DNA from: Geobacteraceae bacterium
GTDB taxonomy: Bacteria; Desulfobacterota; Desulfuromonadia; Geobacterales; Geobacteraceae
Direction of reading: 5' to 3'
Assembly: GCA_025356035.1 (NCBI GenBank)
Contig: JANXYN010000128.1
Coordinates: 1 to 38,951, forward strand
DNA: 38,951 bases
Part shown: piece after piece, positions 16,334 through 24,582 of the stretch
Layout: the number at the start of each line of letters is the position of its first letter
Numbering within the stretch: position 1 is the stretch's first letter
Translations under genes and position numbers: made by a program
The notes under the pieces: model-generated
Seen by the model: only the letters and a program-made list of their open reading frames with translations
What the model was told of the DNA's origin: nothing
Databases searched by the model: none

Positions 16334-17062
16334 TCAGCAACTATTTTTGGCGGCGGCAACGATCTTTCTCAGTTTCACTGCAGTAAGAATCAGATTGGCA
16401 ATTATTGAGACAAAATAGATCTCGTCATCGGTGAAGATCTTCATGGAGGTTGAATTGAGATTTATGACCCCATAGACATCATGCTTGTCGGTGATGGGAT
16501 AAGAGAGCATGGAATTGTAGCGCTCCTCATTCAACTCGGGGAAATTCACATACCGCGGGTCCTGGGAGGCCTTGGTGATCGAGATGTGTTGTTTCTCCCT
16601 GGCGGCGGTACCGGTAATCCCCTCGCCAATCTTCAGCCGGATCTTCCCCACGTTCGCCTTGTCGAAACCATAGGTGGCTGCCAGAACAAGCTCATCAGCC
16701 TCCCGCAGATAGATGGAACAGACACTCGCCTTCAACTGACCGGCTACCTTTTCCGCCACCTTTTCCAGAACCTCGGGAAGATCGAAGTCAGACGAAACCA
16801 GCATACTGATCTCTTCCAGGGAAATGATCTCCAGATGCTCGCGATTGGCCTTCTGCATAGTGAGTACCATCTTACCCTTCTCACTTTCCACAAACGGAGT
16901 AAAGCTGGCACGCTGGTAAAATGGATTAACTGTCTTGACTTTTTCCGTGATCGTGCGAAAGTCTGAAAAACCGCAGTGACAGGTCAGCTTCACCCGATAG
17001 TTGTCTATTCGCTCGCTCTTCATGATTCTGCCGCATTTCCGGCAGCGGGCTGCAATCTGCAT
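16334..17062 (-). CDS. zinc-ribbon plus GAF domain protein
   Basis: 242 residues. The N-terminus (about 1-40) has two cysteine pairs, CRKC and CHC spaced 18 residues apart, as in a small zinc ribbon. A linker follows, then one GAF domain (about 75-230) containing SVCSIYLREADELVLAATYG, GEGITGTAAREKQ and YNSMLSYPITDKHDVYGVIN. GAF domains bind small ligands or chromophores and often feed signalling proteins. There is no kinase, cyclase or DNA-binding output in the chain, so output may go through the adjacent receiver or the zinc ribbon. The ATG at 17062 has AAGGAG upstream. It follows the rodZ-like gene by 33 bases. Confidence 0.85.
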   Translation of the reverse strand: MQIAARCRKCGRIMKSERIDNYRVKLTCHCGFSDFRTITEKVKTVNPFYQRASFTPFVESEKGKMVLTMQKANREHLEIISLEEISMLVSSDFDLPEVLEKVAEKVAGQLKASVCSIYLREADELVLAATYGFDKANVGKIRLKIGEGITGTAAREKQHISITKASQDPRYVNFPELNEERYNSMLSYPITDKHDVYGVINLNSTSMKIFTDDEIYFVSIIANLILTAVKLRKIVAAAKNSC

Positions 17063-17095: not shown

Positions 17096-17944
17096 TCAGG
17101 CACCGTTACCCTTGAGCACAATATGGGCGGTGTCACCTTTGGCGCCAAACGCCTTGAGGGGTCTGCCATTGAACTCGGCCTCGACACCACCCGCGTTGCC
17201 AAGATCAAGGGTGAAGAACCGCTCCCCCTTCCATTCGATCACATCGCCCGTTTTCAGATCGTAACGCTTCGACAGATTGCCGTCAATGGCCATATTCAGC
17301 CAACCATCTTCCTTCACCACGAGCCGCAGCACAATCCCCTGCTGTGGCCGCCGTGGCTCGCTGCGCTGCACCTGCTGGACCCTGGCCGGCGAGGTCTCTG
17401 CAACCGGTTTCGGCACGGCAACAGGCTCTGGCAACGGCATAGCTGGCACCGGTGGCACCGAAGCGGTCGAGCGCTGGGGTTGAAGCGCCGCCATGTTGGT
17501 TGCTGATGGCCCCTGCACGACCGCCGTTCTCTCTTCCCCATCCCGCCCGGCAAGATACACAACCCCGATGACCAGTGCCAGCAACACTGCCGGCATCCAG
17601 ATACCCCGCGGCAAGAGACTTTTTGTTTCTCCGGTATCCAGCAGATTTTTCTGCCCCTCGCTGAGGGGTAGCGCTTCCTGGGCCAAACAGTCGCTATCGA
17701 GGAGGGCAACTACCTCGTCGCCGGAAAGACCGAGCAGACTGGCGTAAACTCGAATAAACCCCTTCACATAAGCCCGATTCGGGAGCCTGGCAAAATCATC
17801 CTCTTCAAGCGCCACCAGGTAAATCTTGCCGATCCGGGTAATCCTGGCAGCTTCGTCAAGCTTCAGGCCCTTTGCCTCGCGCGCCTGCCGCAAGCAGGCA
17901 CCGACCGACTTCCCCTTGATTTCGGATATACCGATATCTGTCAT
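17096..17944 (-). CDS. rodZ: RodZ-like membrane protein with N-terminal helix-turn-helix
   Basis: 282 residues. A cytoplasmic helix-turn-helix of the HTH_25 type (about 14-80; GACLRQAREAKGLKLDEAA and PNRAYVKGFIRVYASLLGL) is followed by one membrane segment (about 117-135, MPAVLLALVIGVVYLAG). Next come a Pro/Ala-rich periplasmic linker and a C-terminal DUF4115 domain (VVKEDGWLNMAIDG to the end). In model bacteria RodZ anchors MreB to the membrane and sets rod shape. The domain order is intact, but no mreB is in the window. The ATG at 17944 with GAGG six bases upstream is preferred. A GTG at 17956 would overlap the stop of the TPR gene. It is third in the unit starting at 20980. Confidence 0.88.
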   Translation of the reverse strand: MTDIGISEIKGKSVGACLRQAREAKGLKLDEAARITRIGKIYLVALEEDDFARLPNRAYVKGFIRVYASLLGLSGDEVVALLDSDCLAQEALPLSEGQKNLLDTGETKSLLPRGIWMPAVLLALVIGVVYLAGRDGEERTAVVQGPSATNMAALQPQRSTASVPPVPAMPLPEPVAVPKPVAETSPARVQQVQRSEPRRPQQGIVLRLVVKEDGWLNMAIDGNLSKRYDLKTGDVIEWKGERFFTLDLGNAGGVEAEFNGRPLKAFGAKGDTAHIVLKGNGA

Positions 17945-17952
17945 TATACCCC

Positions 17953-18702
17953 TCACCGCAACGTATTCAGGTATTCCTTGGCGAGCTGCCCTTTCTCCGA
18001 ATCCGGCGCTACCCGGATTACTTCCCTGAAGGCGGCCTGGGCCGCCGGATGATTATTGAGCTTGAGCCAGGCCAGTGCCAGGTTGTAATCGGCATCGGCG
18101 TAATCATTGGCCAGCTCCAGTGCCGACTTATACTCCTGCACGGCAAGTTCACTCTTGCCCATGGCAAAATAAGTTTTGCCGAGATTGAGCCTCCCTTGGG
18201 GAACCCGCGGATAATTGCTCACCACCGTACGCAAAATGGCCAGGGACTTGGGGTAGTCTCCCTTGCCGTAATAGGCAATACCCTGGTTGATCAGGGCGAA
18301 TTCGGGACTCTGGTAGAAGAGATCCTCGGCAACCTTTTGAAACTGTAGAATGGCATCATCCCAGCGCCGCATCTCCAGATAATTCACGCCAAGATTATTC
18401 CTCGCCTCCGAGTACTCCGGTTTCAGTTGCAGCGCCTTCAGGTATTTCGGCTCCGCCAGCTCGAACTTCTTTTTATAATAGTAAGTTAGCCCGAGATAGT
18501 TGAGAAGTTCCGGGTCGTCAGGGGTGATCTTCTCTGCCTCGCTGAACTCCACCAGAGCCCTCGTCACATTGTTTTCACCAAGAAAGGACAAGCCCATCTG
18601 GTAGTGGTAGGAAGCCTGTTTCCTGGTAGCTTCACTAAGGGCACAGGCAGACAACAGCAAAGAGGTCCCAATAATAATTAACAGTATCTGTTTCACAGTC
18701 AC
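17953..18702 (-). CDS. PilF/PilW-like TPR lipoprotein
   Basis: 249 residues. A lipoprotein signal ends at LSAC, so the mature protein starts with a lipidated Cys. At least five tetratricopeptide repeats follow (for example PELLNYLGLTYYYKKKFELAE and SEARNNLGVNYLEMRRWDDA). In Pseudomonas and Neisseria, PilF/PilW is the outer-membrane pilotin for the type IV pilus secretin. The position next to rodZ and near rlmN and ndk matches the pilF locus of gammaproteobacteria. The pilotin role here is inferred from synteny. The start is GTG 18702 with AAGGA seven bases upstream. It begins 10 bases after the stop of the repeat protein gene and abuts the rodZ-like gene. Confidence 0.85.
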   Translation of the reverse strand: MTVKQILLIIIGTSLLLSACALSEATRKQASYHYQMGLSFLGENNVTRALVEFSEAEKITPDDPELLNYLGLTYYYKKKFELAEPKYLKALQLKPEYSEARNNLGVNYLEMRRWDDAILQFQKVAEDLFYQSPEFALINQGIAYYGKGDYPKSLAILRTVVSNYPRVPQGRLNLGKTYFAMGKSELAVQEYKSALELANDYADADYNLALAWLKLNNHPAAQAAFREVIRVAPDSEKGQLAKEYLNTLR

Positions 18703-18712
18703 AACCTTTTCC

Positions 18713-20980
18713 TTAAAATGAGGCCATTATCCTGCCGAGCTGCTCCGGAATCGAGGGGGCTTCTGCGGAGGACTGCCTGTTATCGTTACGCACTGGTGGT
18801 GGAGGGGGAGCGATCTGAGACGCAGCAATAGGCAACGGATCAGGCTCTTTTGCCAGGGGTGGCGCATCCTTTGGCAATACCTGCCGAACTGGCGAGGGCT
18901 TAACGGCATCGGCCAGGTGCAACGCCCGCAAATCTGCCAATGCTGCCAGGCGTTGAACACTGTTCGCCCCGAGGTCCACCCGCTCCAGCATGAAGCCGAT
19001 CGATTCAAGGAACTCAGTGGCCGCATGGATAGTCTGGGCGTAACCTGCCTGGTCCTGGGGCTGGATCAAAGGGGTATACACCATTGCCTTGTCACTTTCA
19101 GTGAGGAACAGTGCCAGATAAACCAAGGTCTGGCCGCCGCTTGTAACCGCACAGATGCAGGCGTCACAGGGCTCAGAGTTAACACCCTCCGGGGCAATCG
19201 TGGCGGGTGTCAATGAACGGTACGCCTCCTTGATCTCTGCTGCCGTTGCAGCTTCGATAAAAGAGCGAGACTTGTCCAACCCGAACTGCACCCTGGCAAC
19301 TTCCGGTTCCGCAGAGTTAAAACCGATAAAAGACGCTGGCGGCGCTTCCTTGGCAGTTGTCGGTTCAGGTCCATCGTCCGGTATACTGCCGACGCCGGCC
19401 AACCGCAGGACCTTCACCCGGCTCAGCGCTGCTTTCCTGCTCTCCGCCTCGCCACCCAATTCGGCCCGATCCATCATAAAACCAAGCGATTCGAGAAAAA
19501 CCACGGCATCGCCAATGGTTTTCCCATAGCCAGCCTGGTCCTGGGGCTGCTTCTCGGGGAGGTAAACCAACCCCTTGCCAATTATGGTCAGGTAGAGGGC
19601 GACATACACATGAGTAGCCACACCCTCTTTTATGGCAAGGATGTATGCATCACAAGGCTCTGCGTTTGCCCCCTCAGGCGCAATGTGCTTCGACCCCAAG
19701 GAACTATAGAGTTCAACGATCGCGGCTGGTGTAGCGACTTCGATAAAGGGCCGGGATTTATCCAGGCTGAACTGCACAGGAGCCCCTGCCGATGAGGCAG
19801 CGAAAAAATCATTGGACTCCCCCCCCCCTTGTCCCTGGAATGGAGTAATTTCAGCAGCACCGACCAGCTGCGGCTCGGCAAAAAACGGATCTTGCCTGAC
19901 AGCAAACTGCTCTTGTAAAGGGAAAGGCTCAGCTGCCTCGGCGGCTAGAGGCTTGCCAGAAAAAGATCCTTGTCCAGCAGCAGGTGAAGTGACTGCTGGC
20001 GCTGAACTGGGCAGCGGCAGATCGGCTGCAGGTGATTTTGTTGATGGCTGCAGCGGCCGGCTGCCAGGCAGACGCAACACCGGGATACTCCGCAACACCA
20101 CCTGCCGCATCGCTACGTTAGCCCCGAGATTAACCGCTTCCATGCTGAAACCAAAACTCTGCACAAACTTGACGGCTTGCTGGAACAGCTTGCCACCATC
20201 CGCATAGCTCGCGGGCTGTTGCGCAGGGGTATAGACCAGAGCCTTACGGCTCTCCTTGAGGAATAGCGCGACGAAGATTGCGGCACCACCGCCGTTGACC
20301 AGACATATGTAGGCCTCGGCAGGTTGGGCATGAAGGCCGGCAAGAGCCAGTTGGACAACGGCGGTCGACCGGTAGAGCTCGTTGACATCTTCCGCCGCAG
20401 CAATCTCGATCCCTGACAATACCCCATTCAGCTGAAAAAGCGGTGCCGGCTCAGCAGGCTGGGCTGAAGTTTGCGGGAAACCATCGTCCAGCCACGAGGG
20501 CAGTGGTGCTGGCGTAAAGCCGTTGCCCTGCCATGAACCTGAATCGGGGGAAGTCTCAAATTGAGATTGTGCTGCTGGAGCAGGAGCGGTAGGCGGGGAT
20601 ATGGCCAGGCGCAGCACCGGCAAGCCACGCACAAGCTTTTCCCGCTGGGCCGGGTCTGTGCCCAACGCCACTTTCTCCAGGACAAAACCGATCGATTCGG
20701 CAAAGTCGAACGCCTCCTGGAGCGCTTTACTGGAAACGACAGGGTCTGCCGACGGTTTGTCAGAGGCGTAAACCAGTACCTTATTGCTTTCGGTCAGAAA
20801 CAGGGCAACATAGGTGAAAGATATGCCATTCTTGTTAACGGCACAAAGATAGGCCTCGCACGGCTGGCTGCTGAAACCTACCGGCGCAATACGGGCTGGT
20901 GTTGCCGAACGATAGAGCTCAATGACGTCTGCCGGCGAACAGACTTCAACAGCCGTCATGAGTTTGTCGAGTTTGATCAT
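18713..20980 (-). CDS. four-fold repeat protein of unknown function
   Basis: 755 residues that I do not recognise. Four copies of a domain of about 125 residues occur at 1-126, 181-305, 401-528 and 564-690. They are joined by Pro/Ala/Gly-rich linkers of 35-95 residues, and a Pro-rich tail runs to 755. Shared positions per copy: xELYRSxxxxxIAPxG, then EPCxAYICAV (Cys41/46, Cys226, Cys443, Cys605/610), then VALFLTESxKxLVY, then FxESIGFMLExVxLG, ending VLRLA. Copies 3 and 4 also share QPQDQAGY. No signal peptide or membrane segment is seen, so it is probably cytoplasmic. The strands and helices alternate, suggesting a compact alpha/beta module. It is the first gene after a strong promoter and is tightly coupled to the TPR lipoprotein gene. 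The Shine-Dalgarno before ATG 20980 is weak. Confidence 0.85.
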   Translation of the reverse strand: MIKLDKLMTAVEVCSPADVIELYRSATPARIAPVGFSSQPCEAYLCAVNKNGISFTYVALFLTESNKVLVYASDKPSADPVVSSKALQEAFDFAESIGFVLEKVALGTDPAQREKLVRGLPVLRLAISPPTAPAPAAQSQFETSPDSGSWQGNGFTPAPLPSWLDDGFPQTSAQPAEPAPLFQLNGVLSGIEIAAAEDVNELYRSTAVVQLALAGLHAQPAEAYICLVNGGGAAIFVALFLKESRKALVYTPAQQPASYADGGKLFQQAVKFVQSFGFSMEAVNLGANVAMRQVVLRSIPVLRLPGSRPLQPSTKSPAADLPLPSSAPAVTSPAAGQGSFSGKPLAAEAAEPFPLQEQFAVRQDPFFAEPQLVGAAEITPFQGQGGGESNDFFAASSAGAPVQFSLDKSRPFIEVATPAAIVELYSSLGSKHIAPEGANAEPCDAYILAIKEGVATHVYVALYLTIIGKGLVYLPEKQPQDQAGYGKTIGDAVVFLESLGFMMDRAELGGEAESRKAALSRVKVLRLAGVGSIPDDGPEPTTAKEAPPASFIGFNSAEPEVARVQFGLDKSRSFIEAATAAEIKEAYRSLTPATIAPEGVNSEPCDACICAVTSGGQTLVYLALFLTESDKAMVYTPLIQPQDQAGYAQTIHAATEFLESIGFMLERVDLGANSVQRLAALADLRALHLADAVKPSPVRQVLPKDAPPLAKEPDPLPIAASQIAPPPPPVRNDNRQSSAEAPSIPEQLGRIMASF

Positions 20981-21121: not shown

Positions 21122-22048
21122 TCACAGCCCTTCCTGGTGAGGCAGCCCCCGGAAGTGGGTCAGCGCTTTGAAATCCCGGTAACGCTCCTCAATCTCACGG
21201 TAAGCAAGAGTCTTCATCCGGTCGAGACTGAATGCTTCCACGTTGAAAGAGGCCATCACGCTGCCAAACACGATGGCCTGACGGACCCCCTCTTCGGAGG
21301 TGTCACCGGTATTGGCCAGATACCCCATGAAGCCGCCGGCAAAGGTATCGCCGGCACCGGTCGGGTCAAACACAGCCTCCAGCGGGTAGGCGGGAGCAGC
21401 AAACACAGATGTATCGGTGAACATCAGCACACCATACTCGCCACGCTTGATGATCAAGGTTTTTAAACCAAGGGCAAGAATTTGACGCGCCGCCTTTACC
21501 AGGTTTGGCTCACGCGTCAACTGGCGGGCCTCCCCCTCGTTGATTATAAGGATGTCAACCCGCCCGATCACCTCTCTCAATGCATCCGGCTTGGAAGATA
21601 TCCAGAAATTCATGGTATCGCTGGCGATGACCTTCGGTTTTCTGACCTGGCGCAACACCTCCATCTGCAGCTCCGGGTCGATGTTGGCGAGAAACAGGTA
21701 TTCGGAATCGGCGTATGCCGGCGGAATCTGCGGCTTGAAGGTCTCGAACACATTGAGGTGGGTCTCCAGGGTCTGGGCCTCGTTCAGGTCGTAGCCGTAT
21801 TTCCCCTTCCAGTGGAACGTCTTGCCACTGTCCCGGGCGAGACCGCGCAGATCGATCTCCCTGGATTTGAGAAAATCCAGATGTTCCTGAGGAAAATCAT
21901 CCCCCACCACCGCCACCAGATTGACATCGGTAAAGAAGCTGGCTGACGTGGAAAAATAAGTAGCGGAGCCACCCAGCACGTTATCCACCCTGCCAAAGGG
22001 AGTTTCCACCGAATCAAACGCCACCGACCCTACCACAAGGATGCTCAT
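21122..22048 (-). CDS. PfkB-family carbohydrate/nucleoside kinase
   Basis: 308 residues with a ribokinase fold. The N-terminal glycine motif is VDNVLGGSATYFS, and the C-terminal PfkB signature is DPTGAGDTFAGGF (228-240), with the catalytic base Asp234. It should phosphorylate a sugar or nucleoside with ATP. The neighbour is MTA phosphorylase, which releases adenine and methylthioribose-1-phosphate, so a role in nucleoside or methylthioribose salvage is possible but unproven. It begins 75 bases after mtnP ends, with GGAG seven bases before ATG 22048. The order mtnP-pfkB suggests co-transcription. Confidence 0.9.
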   Translation of the reverse strand: MSILVVGSVAFDSVETPFGRVDNVLGGSATYFSTSASFFTDVNLVAVVGDDFPQEHLDFLKSREIDLRGLARDSGKTFHWKGKYGYDLNEAQTLETHLNVFETFKPQIPPAYADSEYLFLANIDPELQMEVLRQVRKPKVIASDTMNFWISSKPDALREVIGRVDILIINEGEARQLTREPNLVKAARQILALGLKTLIIKRGEYGVLMFTDTSVFAAPAYPLEAVFDPTGAGDTFAGGFMGYLANTGDTSEEGVRQAIVFGSVMASFNVEAFSLDRMKTLAYREIEERYRDFKALTHFRGLPHQEGL

Positions 22049-22123: not shown

Positions 22124-22987
22124 CTATTTCAAATATCTGCCGACAATCAGCGCAAGCCGCTCTTTGGCCTCTTCGGGAATAACTGCCGGGTCGGTAATGA
22201 TGGCATACTGAAGCGCTGTGGAGCAAGAGCATCCGTTTTCACCAAACAGCCGCACGGCATGGGTGATGATGGCCTTGGCGGTGGCCACATTCTGCTTGAT
22301 GATCGCCAGTACCGCCTCCACCGACACGTCCTCATGGGTTTCATGCCAGCAGTCGTAATCGGTAGCAAGCGCGATGACGCCATAGCAGATCTCTGCCTCG
22401 CGGGCCAGCTTTGCCTCTGGGATGTTGGTCATGCCGATCACCGAAACACCGAAGGTGCGATACATGTTCGATTCGGCGCGGGTGGAAAACGCCGGCCCCT
22501 CCATGCAGATATAGGTGCCGCCATAGTGAGCCGTTGCCCCCGCTTTCTTGGCTGCCGTAAAAAGATGGGAGGAAAGCTCCTTGCAAACCGGATCGGCAAA
22601 CTGCACATGCGCCACGACCCCATCGCCAAAAAAGGTGTTGGCCCGACTCCCGTTGGTGCGATCGATGAACTGGTCGGGGATGACGATATGGCCGGGAACG
22701 ATCTCCTCCTTCATGCTCCCCACCGCTGACACCGAGATGAGGCGGGTGACCCCCAGCTTCTTCATCCCGTAGATATTGGCACGGTAGTTGACCTCGGAAG
22801 GAAGCAGGCGATGGCCCCTGCCGTGGCGGGGAAGAAACACCATTTTCATACCGTCGAGGACGCCGGTGATAAATTCATCGGAAGGGGAGCCAAACGGTGT
22901 CTCCACCGCCACGCTCCTTACCTCGGTGAGCTCCTCCAGCTCATACAGGCCGCTGCCGCCGATCACGCCGATGATCTGTTCTGCCAT
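22124..22987 (-). CDS. mtnP: S-methyl-5'-thioadenosine phosphorylase
   Basis: 287 residues, trimeric purine-nucleoside phosphorylase family. GVIGGSGLYELEEL is at the N-terminus. Phosphate- and ribose-binding motifs include LPRHGRGHRLLPSEVNYRAN, CMEGPAFSTRAESNMYR, and the base-recognition segment ATDYDCWHE. These match MTA phosphorylases rather than guanosine/inosine phosphorylases. It splits methylthioadenosine, a by-product of polyamine and S-adenosylmethionine chemistry, into adenine and methylthioribose-1-phosphate. The ATG at 22987 has a perfect AGGAGG. Between it and rlmN lies a repeat cluster (22988-23087). Confidence 0.94.
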   Translation of the reverse strand: MAEQIIGVIGGSGLYELEELTEVRSVAVETPFGSPSDEFITGVLDGMKMVFLPRHGRGHRLLPSEVNYRANIYGMKKLGVTRLISVSAVGSMKEEIVPGHIVIPDQFIDRTNGSRANTFFGDGVVAHVQFADPVCKELSSHLFTAAKKAGATAHYGGTYICMEGPAFSTRAESNMYRTFGVSVIGMTNIPEAKLAREAEICYGVIALATDYDCWHETHEDVSVEAVLAIIKQNVATAKAIITHAVRLFGENGCSCSTALQYAIITDPAVIPEEAKERLALIVGRYLK

Positions 22988-23021: not shown

Positions 23022-23087
23022 AGGGCGCATGCCATGCGCCCCTACTGTTACCTGTTACCTGTTACTTATTACTTGTCACTCGTCACA
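23022..23087. repeat. palindromic repeat plus six heptanucleotide units
   Basis: 23022-23045 is identical to 10835-10858 (palindrome GGGCGCATGCCATGCGCCC plus flank). Directly after it come six seven-base units: TGTTACC, TGTTACC, TGTTACT, TATTACT, TGTCACT and CGTCACA (23046-23087). The tract runs through the rlmN stop codon (23069-23071) into its last five or six codons. Confidence 0.8.
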
Positions 23088-24100
23088 GATTTTTCCAGCT
23101 TTCCCCGCAGCTGGCCACAGGCGGCGGAGATGTCCGCGCCCCTGCTGGAGCGGGTGATGACCGTGATATTCTTATCGAGCAGGAATTTGTGGAATCGGTC
23201 GATCGTGGCCTGGTCGGGACGACGCAAGGAGCACCCCTCATGCTCATTGAAGGCAATCAGATTGACTTTCGAAGGTATGCCATGAATCAGTTTAACCAGG
23301 CGTTTTGCGTCATCCAGGGAGTCATTCACCCCGCTGATCAGCACGTATTCAAAGGTAATCATCCGACCGCCCGGCAGCGGGAACCGCTTACAGGCAGTCA
23401 GCAGTTCCTTGAGCGGGTAGCGGCGGTTGACCGGCATCAACCGGTCGCGTTCCTCATCAGTAGTGGCGTTGAGGGAGACCGCCAGGTTGACGGTAACCTC
23501 CCGGCCAAGCCGTTCGAGTTCCGGCACCAGCCCGGAAGTGGAAACCGTCACCTTGCGCGTAGAGATCTGCATGCCATCCGGAGAGGTAAGGGTCTTAAGC
23601 ACCCGGATGACGTTGTCCAGATTGGCAAGGGGCTCTCCCATCCCCATGAAAACGACGTTGTTGACCGGCACTTCTTGCAGCACGGCACAGACCTGATTGA
23701 TTATCTCAGCGCTGGTCAGGTTGCGGGTCAGCTTGAAGGTCCCGGTCAGGCAGAACGCACACCCCATGGCACAGCCGACCTGGCTGGAGATGCAGAGGGT
23801 GTTGCGCCCCTCTTCGGGGATCAGCACCGACTCGATACAGCTGCCGTCCACAAGCCGAAACAGGTATTTCCTGGTCCCATCGACCGAGAGTTCCACTACC
23901 TCTGGCTGCAGGGAGCTGATCATGGCACGTACTGCAAGGTCCTGGCGGAATTCCTTGGAGAGATTGGTCATCTCGGCAAAGCTGGTTGCCTGTTTCTGAT
24001 ATAACCATTTGAAGATCTGCCGGGCGCGGTACTTCTCCTTCCCCACCCCCAGCAGAAAATTCTCCAACTCTTCCAAACTCAGGTTTTTTACATCAATCAT
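23069..24100 (-). CDS. rlmN: 23S rRNA/tRNA adenine-C2 methyltransferase RlmN
   Basis: 343 residues. The radical-SAM cluster motif is CxxxCxxC at Cys110, 114 and 117 (within [11 protein letters not shown]). Family motifs [32 protein letters not shown] and [11 protein letters not shown] are present, as is the C-terminal catalytic Cys in [13 protein letters not shown]. It methylates A2503 of 23S rRNA and A37 of some tRNAs. The ORF can be extended to a TTG at 24106, but the ATG at 24100 ([12 protein letters not shown]) is more likely. It follows ndk across a terminator and precedes mtnP. The last few codons are made of heptanucleotide repeat. Confidence 0.96.
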
Positions 24101-24115
24101 TCGCAAATGCTCAAT

Positions 24116-24168: not shown

Positions 24169-24582
24169 CTAGACCAGTTCGAGCTGGCTGAAAAAATAGC
24201 TGATCTCGAACGCGGCGGATTCCGCAGAATCAGAACCATGCGCCGAATTTTCCTCGATGCTGAGACCGAAATCCTTTCTGATGGTCCCCGCCTCCGCATT
24301 GGCAGGATTGGTGGCGCCCATCACCTCGCGCCATTTGGCGACAGCATTCTCCCGCTCCAGCACCATCACCACCACCGGGCTTCTCGACATGAAAGCGCAG
24401 AGATCATTGAAGAACGGCCGCTCCTTGTGTACATAGTAAAACCCTTCGGCCTGGGCTTTGCTCAGTTGGATCTTTTTCATGCCAGCAATCTTGAAGCCAG
24501 CGGCCTCAATCTTTGCCAGCACCTTGCCAGTCATATTTCTTTCGACTGCATCGGGTTTGATAATCGCAAACGTTCTTTCCAT
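24169..24582 (-). CDS. ndk: nucleoside diphosphate kinase
   Basis: 137 residues, full length. It starts [16 protein letters not shown], has the phosphohistidine His115 in the motif NSAHGSDS, and includes RPFF and [14 protein letters not shown]. It exchanges the gamma-phosphate between nucleoside triphosphates and diphosphates. The start has a perfect GGAGGAG. A weak promoter (TTGACA at 24646-24651, poor -10) may lie upstream. It is the first gene of the ndk-rlmN-mtnP-pfkB group. Confidence 0.97.

Follow-up and report, generated by a model that had tools for sequence, protein, structure and literature searches.

The type IVa pilus is among the best-studied bacterial machines. In Pseudomonas the pilotin-type gene pilF lies in the order ndk-rlmN-pilF-rodZ; a literature search for the pilF-rodZ gene order gave nothing. 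Tgl, another protein of this type, is the pilotin of PilQ and works in the outer membrane (PMC10653833). In Geobacter sulfurreducens, the regulon of the GEMM-Ib riboswitches covers outer-membrane cytochromes and, besides genes inside the pilMNOP operon, "multiple hypothetical genes", and in Geobacter GEMM-Ib an A-to-G change at nucleotide 20 switches the specificity from cGAMP to c-di-GMP (PMC6456294). We have analyzed a stretch of 38,951 nucleotides from a Geobacteraceae bacterium (contig JANXYN010000128.1, hereafter the window) containing a four-module ORF that is the version, in this lineage, of a conserved and undescribed gene of the phylum that ordinarily carries a single module.

The gene (18713..20980, minus strand) codes for 755 amino acids from an ATG start, with no apparent signal peptide, and we infer that the product is cytoplasmic. 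An HMM profile built from the four copies placed the module, of some 125 residues, at residues 1-127 (copy 1, 20600..20980), 181-306 (copy 2, 20063..20440), 403-529 (copy 3, 19394..19774) and 565-691 (copy 4, 18908..19288), all on the minus strand and numbered from the ATG, with the 12 residues that precede it left out of the count. These limits lie no more than 2 residues from those of the original prediction, which had described four copies of this size. The likeness among them is far above chance, with identities of 38-56%. Pairwise BLASTP gave 41% between copies 1 and 2 (E 8e-34), 45% between copies 1 and 4 (E 4e-33) and 38% between copies 2 and 3 (E 1e-24). Copies 3 and 4 had been singled out as the closest and they are, being 56% identical and sisters in the tree (98/96). 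An assembly artefact as the source of the repeats is ruled out by identities of just 38-56%; the repeats are real and old. The linkers are rich in Pro, Ala and Ser and are mutually dissimilar, in line with the full divergence described for them. This is the sole module-bearing gene of its genome, and among the genomes surveyed this is the one in which the copy number reaches four.

The module is an unrecognised domain in Pfam, NCBIfam and PDB. The four-module protein had no meaningful match in Pfam or NCBIfam and none in a PDB sequence search, and no consistent Pfam match appeared among 47 family members either (best E 0.0091, in one member), so that naming the module through these libraries was rejected. 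The original prediction had proposed to model a single copy, and AlphaFold2 with a 47-row alignment gave a confident model of copy 4 (pLDDT 95.2, pTM 0.88), with a predicted alpha/beta fold that has several strands and two helices, one at 80-96 and the other at 110-118. This model was compared by Foldseek with PDB (350,542 chains) and BFVD, taking E<0.001 or, for PDB, TM>0.5 as the criterion. There was no match at E<0.001 in either, the best PDB TM was about 0.3, and naming by structure was rejected as well. The folds of DcrB, EagT6 and SciW were among the weak matches (E about 0.24-0.7, TM about 0.3), but these were not significant, with partial alignments, about 6 A rmsd and no common context. 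A match of one copy to a characterised family was thus sought and none was significant, in agreement with the original prediction of an unrecognised domain. Within the module, G98 was invariant across 78 sequences and S25, F2, F93 and E95 nearly so; G98 and other near-invariant residues are retained in the four copies of the window. A Pfam scan found no known nucleotide-binding signature.

The cysteines of the module had been described as partly lost in two of the copies, and this had been read as a division of labour. The loss itself is there, C41 being gone from copy 2 and C46 from copy 3 in the alignment of the four copies. The division of labour is not supported, as C41 is present in one and absent in 15 of the 16 single-copy orthologues; C46 is present in nine and absent in seven. 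The two residues belong to the same predicted strand (39-50 in the copy 4 model), five positions from each other, so they make no natural disulphide or metal pair, and a metal or disulphide site was rejected because the pair is not conserved in the orthologues.

The neighbourhood of the gene, all on the minus strand, resembles that of the Tgl/PilW/PilF pilotins. Starting 7 nt past the module gene there is a Tgl/PilW-like lipoprotein gene (17953..18702, lipobox LSAC) with TPR domains, the best NCBIfam matches of which were Tgl (7.8e-32, with 110.6 bits under a curated cut-off of 225) and PilW (8.3e-27, with 94.2 bits under a cut-off of 154). It is followed by a RodZ-like membrane protein (17096..17956; Pfam HTH_25 3.8e-23, RodZ_C 1.7e-10) and by a GAF-domain protein (16334..17062; Pfam GAF_2 5.5e-17). 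The latter has a Cys-rich N-terminus, CRKCGR...CHCGF, that resembles a small zinc-binding motif. Upstream, in an order kept in orthologous loci, are found a PfkB-family kinase (21122..22048; Pfam PfkB 2.4e-28), a methylthioadenosine phosphorylase-type enzyme (22124..22987; Pfam PNP_UDP_1 5.4e-48), an RlmN-like radical SAM protein (23069..24106) and a nucleoside diphosphate kinase-like protein (24169..24582), the last two named by sequence motifs.

Single-copy versions, which it had been suggested to seek with an HMM made from the four copies, do occur, and beside a TPR lipoprotein gene. Counting the window gene together with the single-copy orthologues from seven other families, the module gene lies directly upstream of a same-strand TPR lipoprotein gene in 17 of 17 loci from eight families. 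The top NCBIfam match of the TPR proteins at these loci was Tgl, PilW or the TPR protein MamA, always below the curated cut-offs. In families f5 to f7 the order is ndk, rlmN, mtnP-type, pfkB-type, module and TPR, and at some of these loci a RodZ-like gene was recognised after the TPR gene as in the window. The gene place is therefore the same as that of the pilotins, with a pilotin-type TPR lipoprotein after the module gene in all 17 loci, but the module protein itself differs from them in having no TPR, no lipobox and no pilotin similarity. In the sampled Geobacterales relatives the module gene was absent from the place between pfkB and the TPR gene at 20 of 20 loci, where the PfkB gene is followed directly by the TPR gene, which makes the window genome an exception within its order.

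Module matches were found in 67 of 147 related genomes and in 18 of 297 genomes of a phylum-wide sample. A contig search with a closer alignment gave 12 loci, all from Geobacteraceae, Geobacter or deltaproteobacterial records and mostly MAGs. The single-copy proteins (families f5, f6, f7, f18, f20, f37 and f52) have about 180-350 amino acids, with one module at the N-terminus joined by a variable linker to a C-terminal tail. This tail they have in common with the window protein, which ends in ...SIPEQLGRIMASF (18716..18769, minus strand), predicted to be amphipathic and with a hydrophobic moment exceeding that of nearly all shuffles. The shared pattern is LGRxLAxF-like, with single-copy endings such as LGRLLAML, LWGRILASF, IIRFLASI, LVKLLISL and similar; in the f52 proteins the C-terminal end is longer and of a variant type. 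In most single-copy orthologues the tail is strongly amphipathic, and in the one single-copy protein modelled the linker was disordered and the tail helical, at modest confidence. The earlier statement that only the module is under selection was too strong, the tail being conserved as well. The window gene is multi-copy, and both its place and its tail are ancestral.

In one family (f20, two genomes) the module gene is adjacent to the pilMNOPQ cluster, so that in these two genomes its genetic linkage to pilus-type genes is a plain observation. The order in genome G196, with domains scanned, is module, TPR lipoprotein, GAF-GAF-GGDEF protein, pilM, pilN, pilO, pilP and pilQ, where PilP was just under the cut-off and PilQ carried AMIN domains. 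G159 shares this layout; PilM, PilQ and the GGDEF protein were confirmed there. The GAF-GAF-GGDEF genes between the TPR gene and pilM are located at L188:3600-5528 and L187:5058-6983. In the window genome pilM and pilQ are on another contig (C142), not linked to the module gene. PilQ and PilM were above the curated cut-off in 22 of the 22 module-bearing genomes checked, to be read against a PilM base rate of 111/148 (75%) in the phylum sample. Two genomes from the module-bearing families f18 and f20, G194 and G231, had neither the module nor PilM, and both assemblies are incomplete. Most pilM-bearing genomes do not have the module, and it cannot therefore be a core part of the pilus. With PilM, PilZ, SgmX and other cytoplasmic accessory proteins of the type IVa pilus it would share a cytoplasmic location, and it shares the linkage to pilMNOPQ (in the one family), but there is no detectable sequence or fold similarity between the module and these in Pfam, NCBIfam and PDB. 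Besides, proteins of the pilotin type act in the periplasm and outer membrane and the module protein is apparently cytoplasmic, so that adjacency need not mean contact; it may reflect co-regulation of the two genes instead.

Most of the sampled Geobacterales relatives have a paralogue elsewhere than at the TPR locus. These proteins (families f1 to f4, about 630-880 amino acids) have a module at each terminus and between these a long charged stretch resembling a coiled coil; the tail is missing, and most end at the second module or within a few residues of it. No neighbour was shared by three or more of their loci, apart from short reverse-strand frames. The tree separated the N-terminal from the C-terminal modules of the two-copy proteins as two clades. 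Of the window copies, copy 2 grouped with the N-type (97/90), the pair of copies 3 and 4 with the C-type, and copy 1 weakly with the C-type (84/81). We favour the view that the window gene shares the N/C duplication with the two-copy paralogues, as this phylogeny suggests; an AU test did not reject (p 0.188) the grouping of the four window copies in a single clade, as an independent fourfold expansion in this lineage would give, and provides no placement for copy 1.

At least 36 of the two-copy paralogues are closely preceded by a GEMM-I riboswitch. This number comprises 27 of 40 upstream regions (among L147-L186) and nine longer loci (L037, L038, L039, L040, L041, L044, L047, L048 and L050). 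By Rfam covariance, L037, L039, L040, L041, L044 and L047 reached or exceeded the gathering score of RF01051, and the remaining ones matched RF03167 with E values of 8e-10 to 1e-3, below that model's own gathering score. All 36 have A20, C21-U22 and G45-G46-A47 by position mapping, with the numbering transferred from the Rfam alignment and the A20 rule taken from PMC6456294, and many have a T-run within the next 30 nt, as expected for transcription attenuation. Given the published specificity switch, the presence of A20 in 36 of 36 leads us to predict that they are cGAMP (GEMM-Ib) riboswitches. The same genomes have A20-type GEMM-I sequences in front of further genes, and G20 types as well. 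The two-copy paralogues are in this respect like the Geobacter GEMM-Ib regulon, with a GEMM-I element that has A at position 20, and the window gene is unlike it, as no riboswitch was found there. None was found at the single-copy loci either, nor upstream of the genus g9 paralogues (four loci). The window genome has 14 GEMM-I matches (on contigs C103, C72, C173 and others), none of them in the window. In another genome, a GEMM-I at G014:C1:2389407-2389483 lies about 0.4 kb upstream of pilM, which fits the published cGAMP control of Geobacter pilMNOP. Group II intron RNA domains were seen near one two-copy locus (L044:1430-1732).

We consider it an even call that the four-module protein serves the type IVa pilus machine as a cytoplasmic accessory or adaptor, the module of which was multiplied in the lineage of the window. 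The pairing with the TPR gene at 17 of 17 loci, the pilMNOPQ linkage in f20, the co-occurrence with pilM and pilQ, the tail and the GEMM-I elements before the paralogues all point in this direction. What weighs against a pilus role is that the TPR proteins do not reach the cut-offs of Tgl and PilW, that adjacency to pilMNOPQ is seen in one family, and that Geobacterales keep the TPR gene with no adjoining module gene (20/20). In its ordinary form the protein would have one alpha/beta module at the N-terminus and, beyond a disordered linker, a short amphipathic helix at the C-terminus. The tail might dock on the membrane or on a component of the machine (the PilM ring, the inner-membrane platform or the RodZ-like bitopic protein), and the module tethered in this way would grip a second partner. 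The valency would then rise with four modules strung on flexible linkers, and the avidity probably with the number of copies. The alternative that the fourfold repetition is functionless, the outcome of neutral duplication, in frame, of a domain that tolerates it and of which one copy is enough, finds some backing in the seven families where single copies suffice and in the restriction of four copies to the window genome. We think it improbable, as G98 and other near-invariant residues have been kept over a long divergence in all four copies, 38-56% identical as they are, and all four thus appear constrained.

If the RodZ-like gene two places downstream were the partner, the module protein would be part of a RodZ-type cell-shape or envelope apparatus, which agrees with the gene order of the window and of many single-copy loci, where a RodZ-like gene comes after the TPR gene. 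However, a GAF-GGDEF protein and not a RodZ-like one comes after the TPR gene at the pilMNOPQ-linked loci, and Geobacterales retain the RodZ-like and TPR genes with no module gene adjoining them, so that this possibility looks unlikely. The diguanylate cyclase-domain protein between the TPR gene and pilM in G196 and G159, the GAF protein nearby in the window and the riboswitches before at least 36 two-copy paralogues would all suit a component of cyclic-dinucleotide signalling (an effector or target of c-di-GMP or cGAMP) with an output not particularly directed to the pilus. This is improbable in our opinion, considering that the window gene, the single-copy loci and the genus g9 paralogues are devoid of the riboswitch, and that the module has no known nucleotide-binding signature.

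Under the preferred reading, that of a pilus accessory, a gene paired with a pilotin-type gene in eight families of the phylum has so far been nameless in the libraries tested. The window protein, with its ancestral place and with several modules besides the tail, helps to bridge the single-copy and two-copy forms. The paralogues in Geobacterales are predicted to belong to the regulon, under cyclic-dinucleotide riboswitches, that controls extracellular electron transfer, and they are concrete candidates for follow-up. A more far-reaching proposal, which we put forward as unlikely, is that the domain defines a class of cytoplasmic adaptors of the type IV pilus that has not been described before, with the module tethered and the tail for docking, and of which one lineage has a two-headed coiled-coil form under a cGAMP-type riboswitch. 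If true, an adaptor class under second-messenger control would couple surface sensing to pilus activity.
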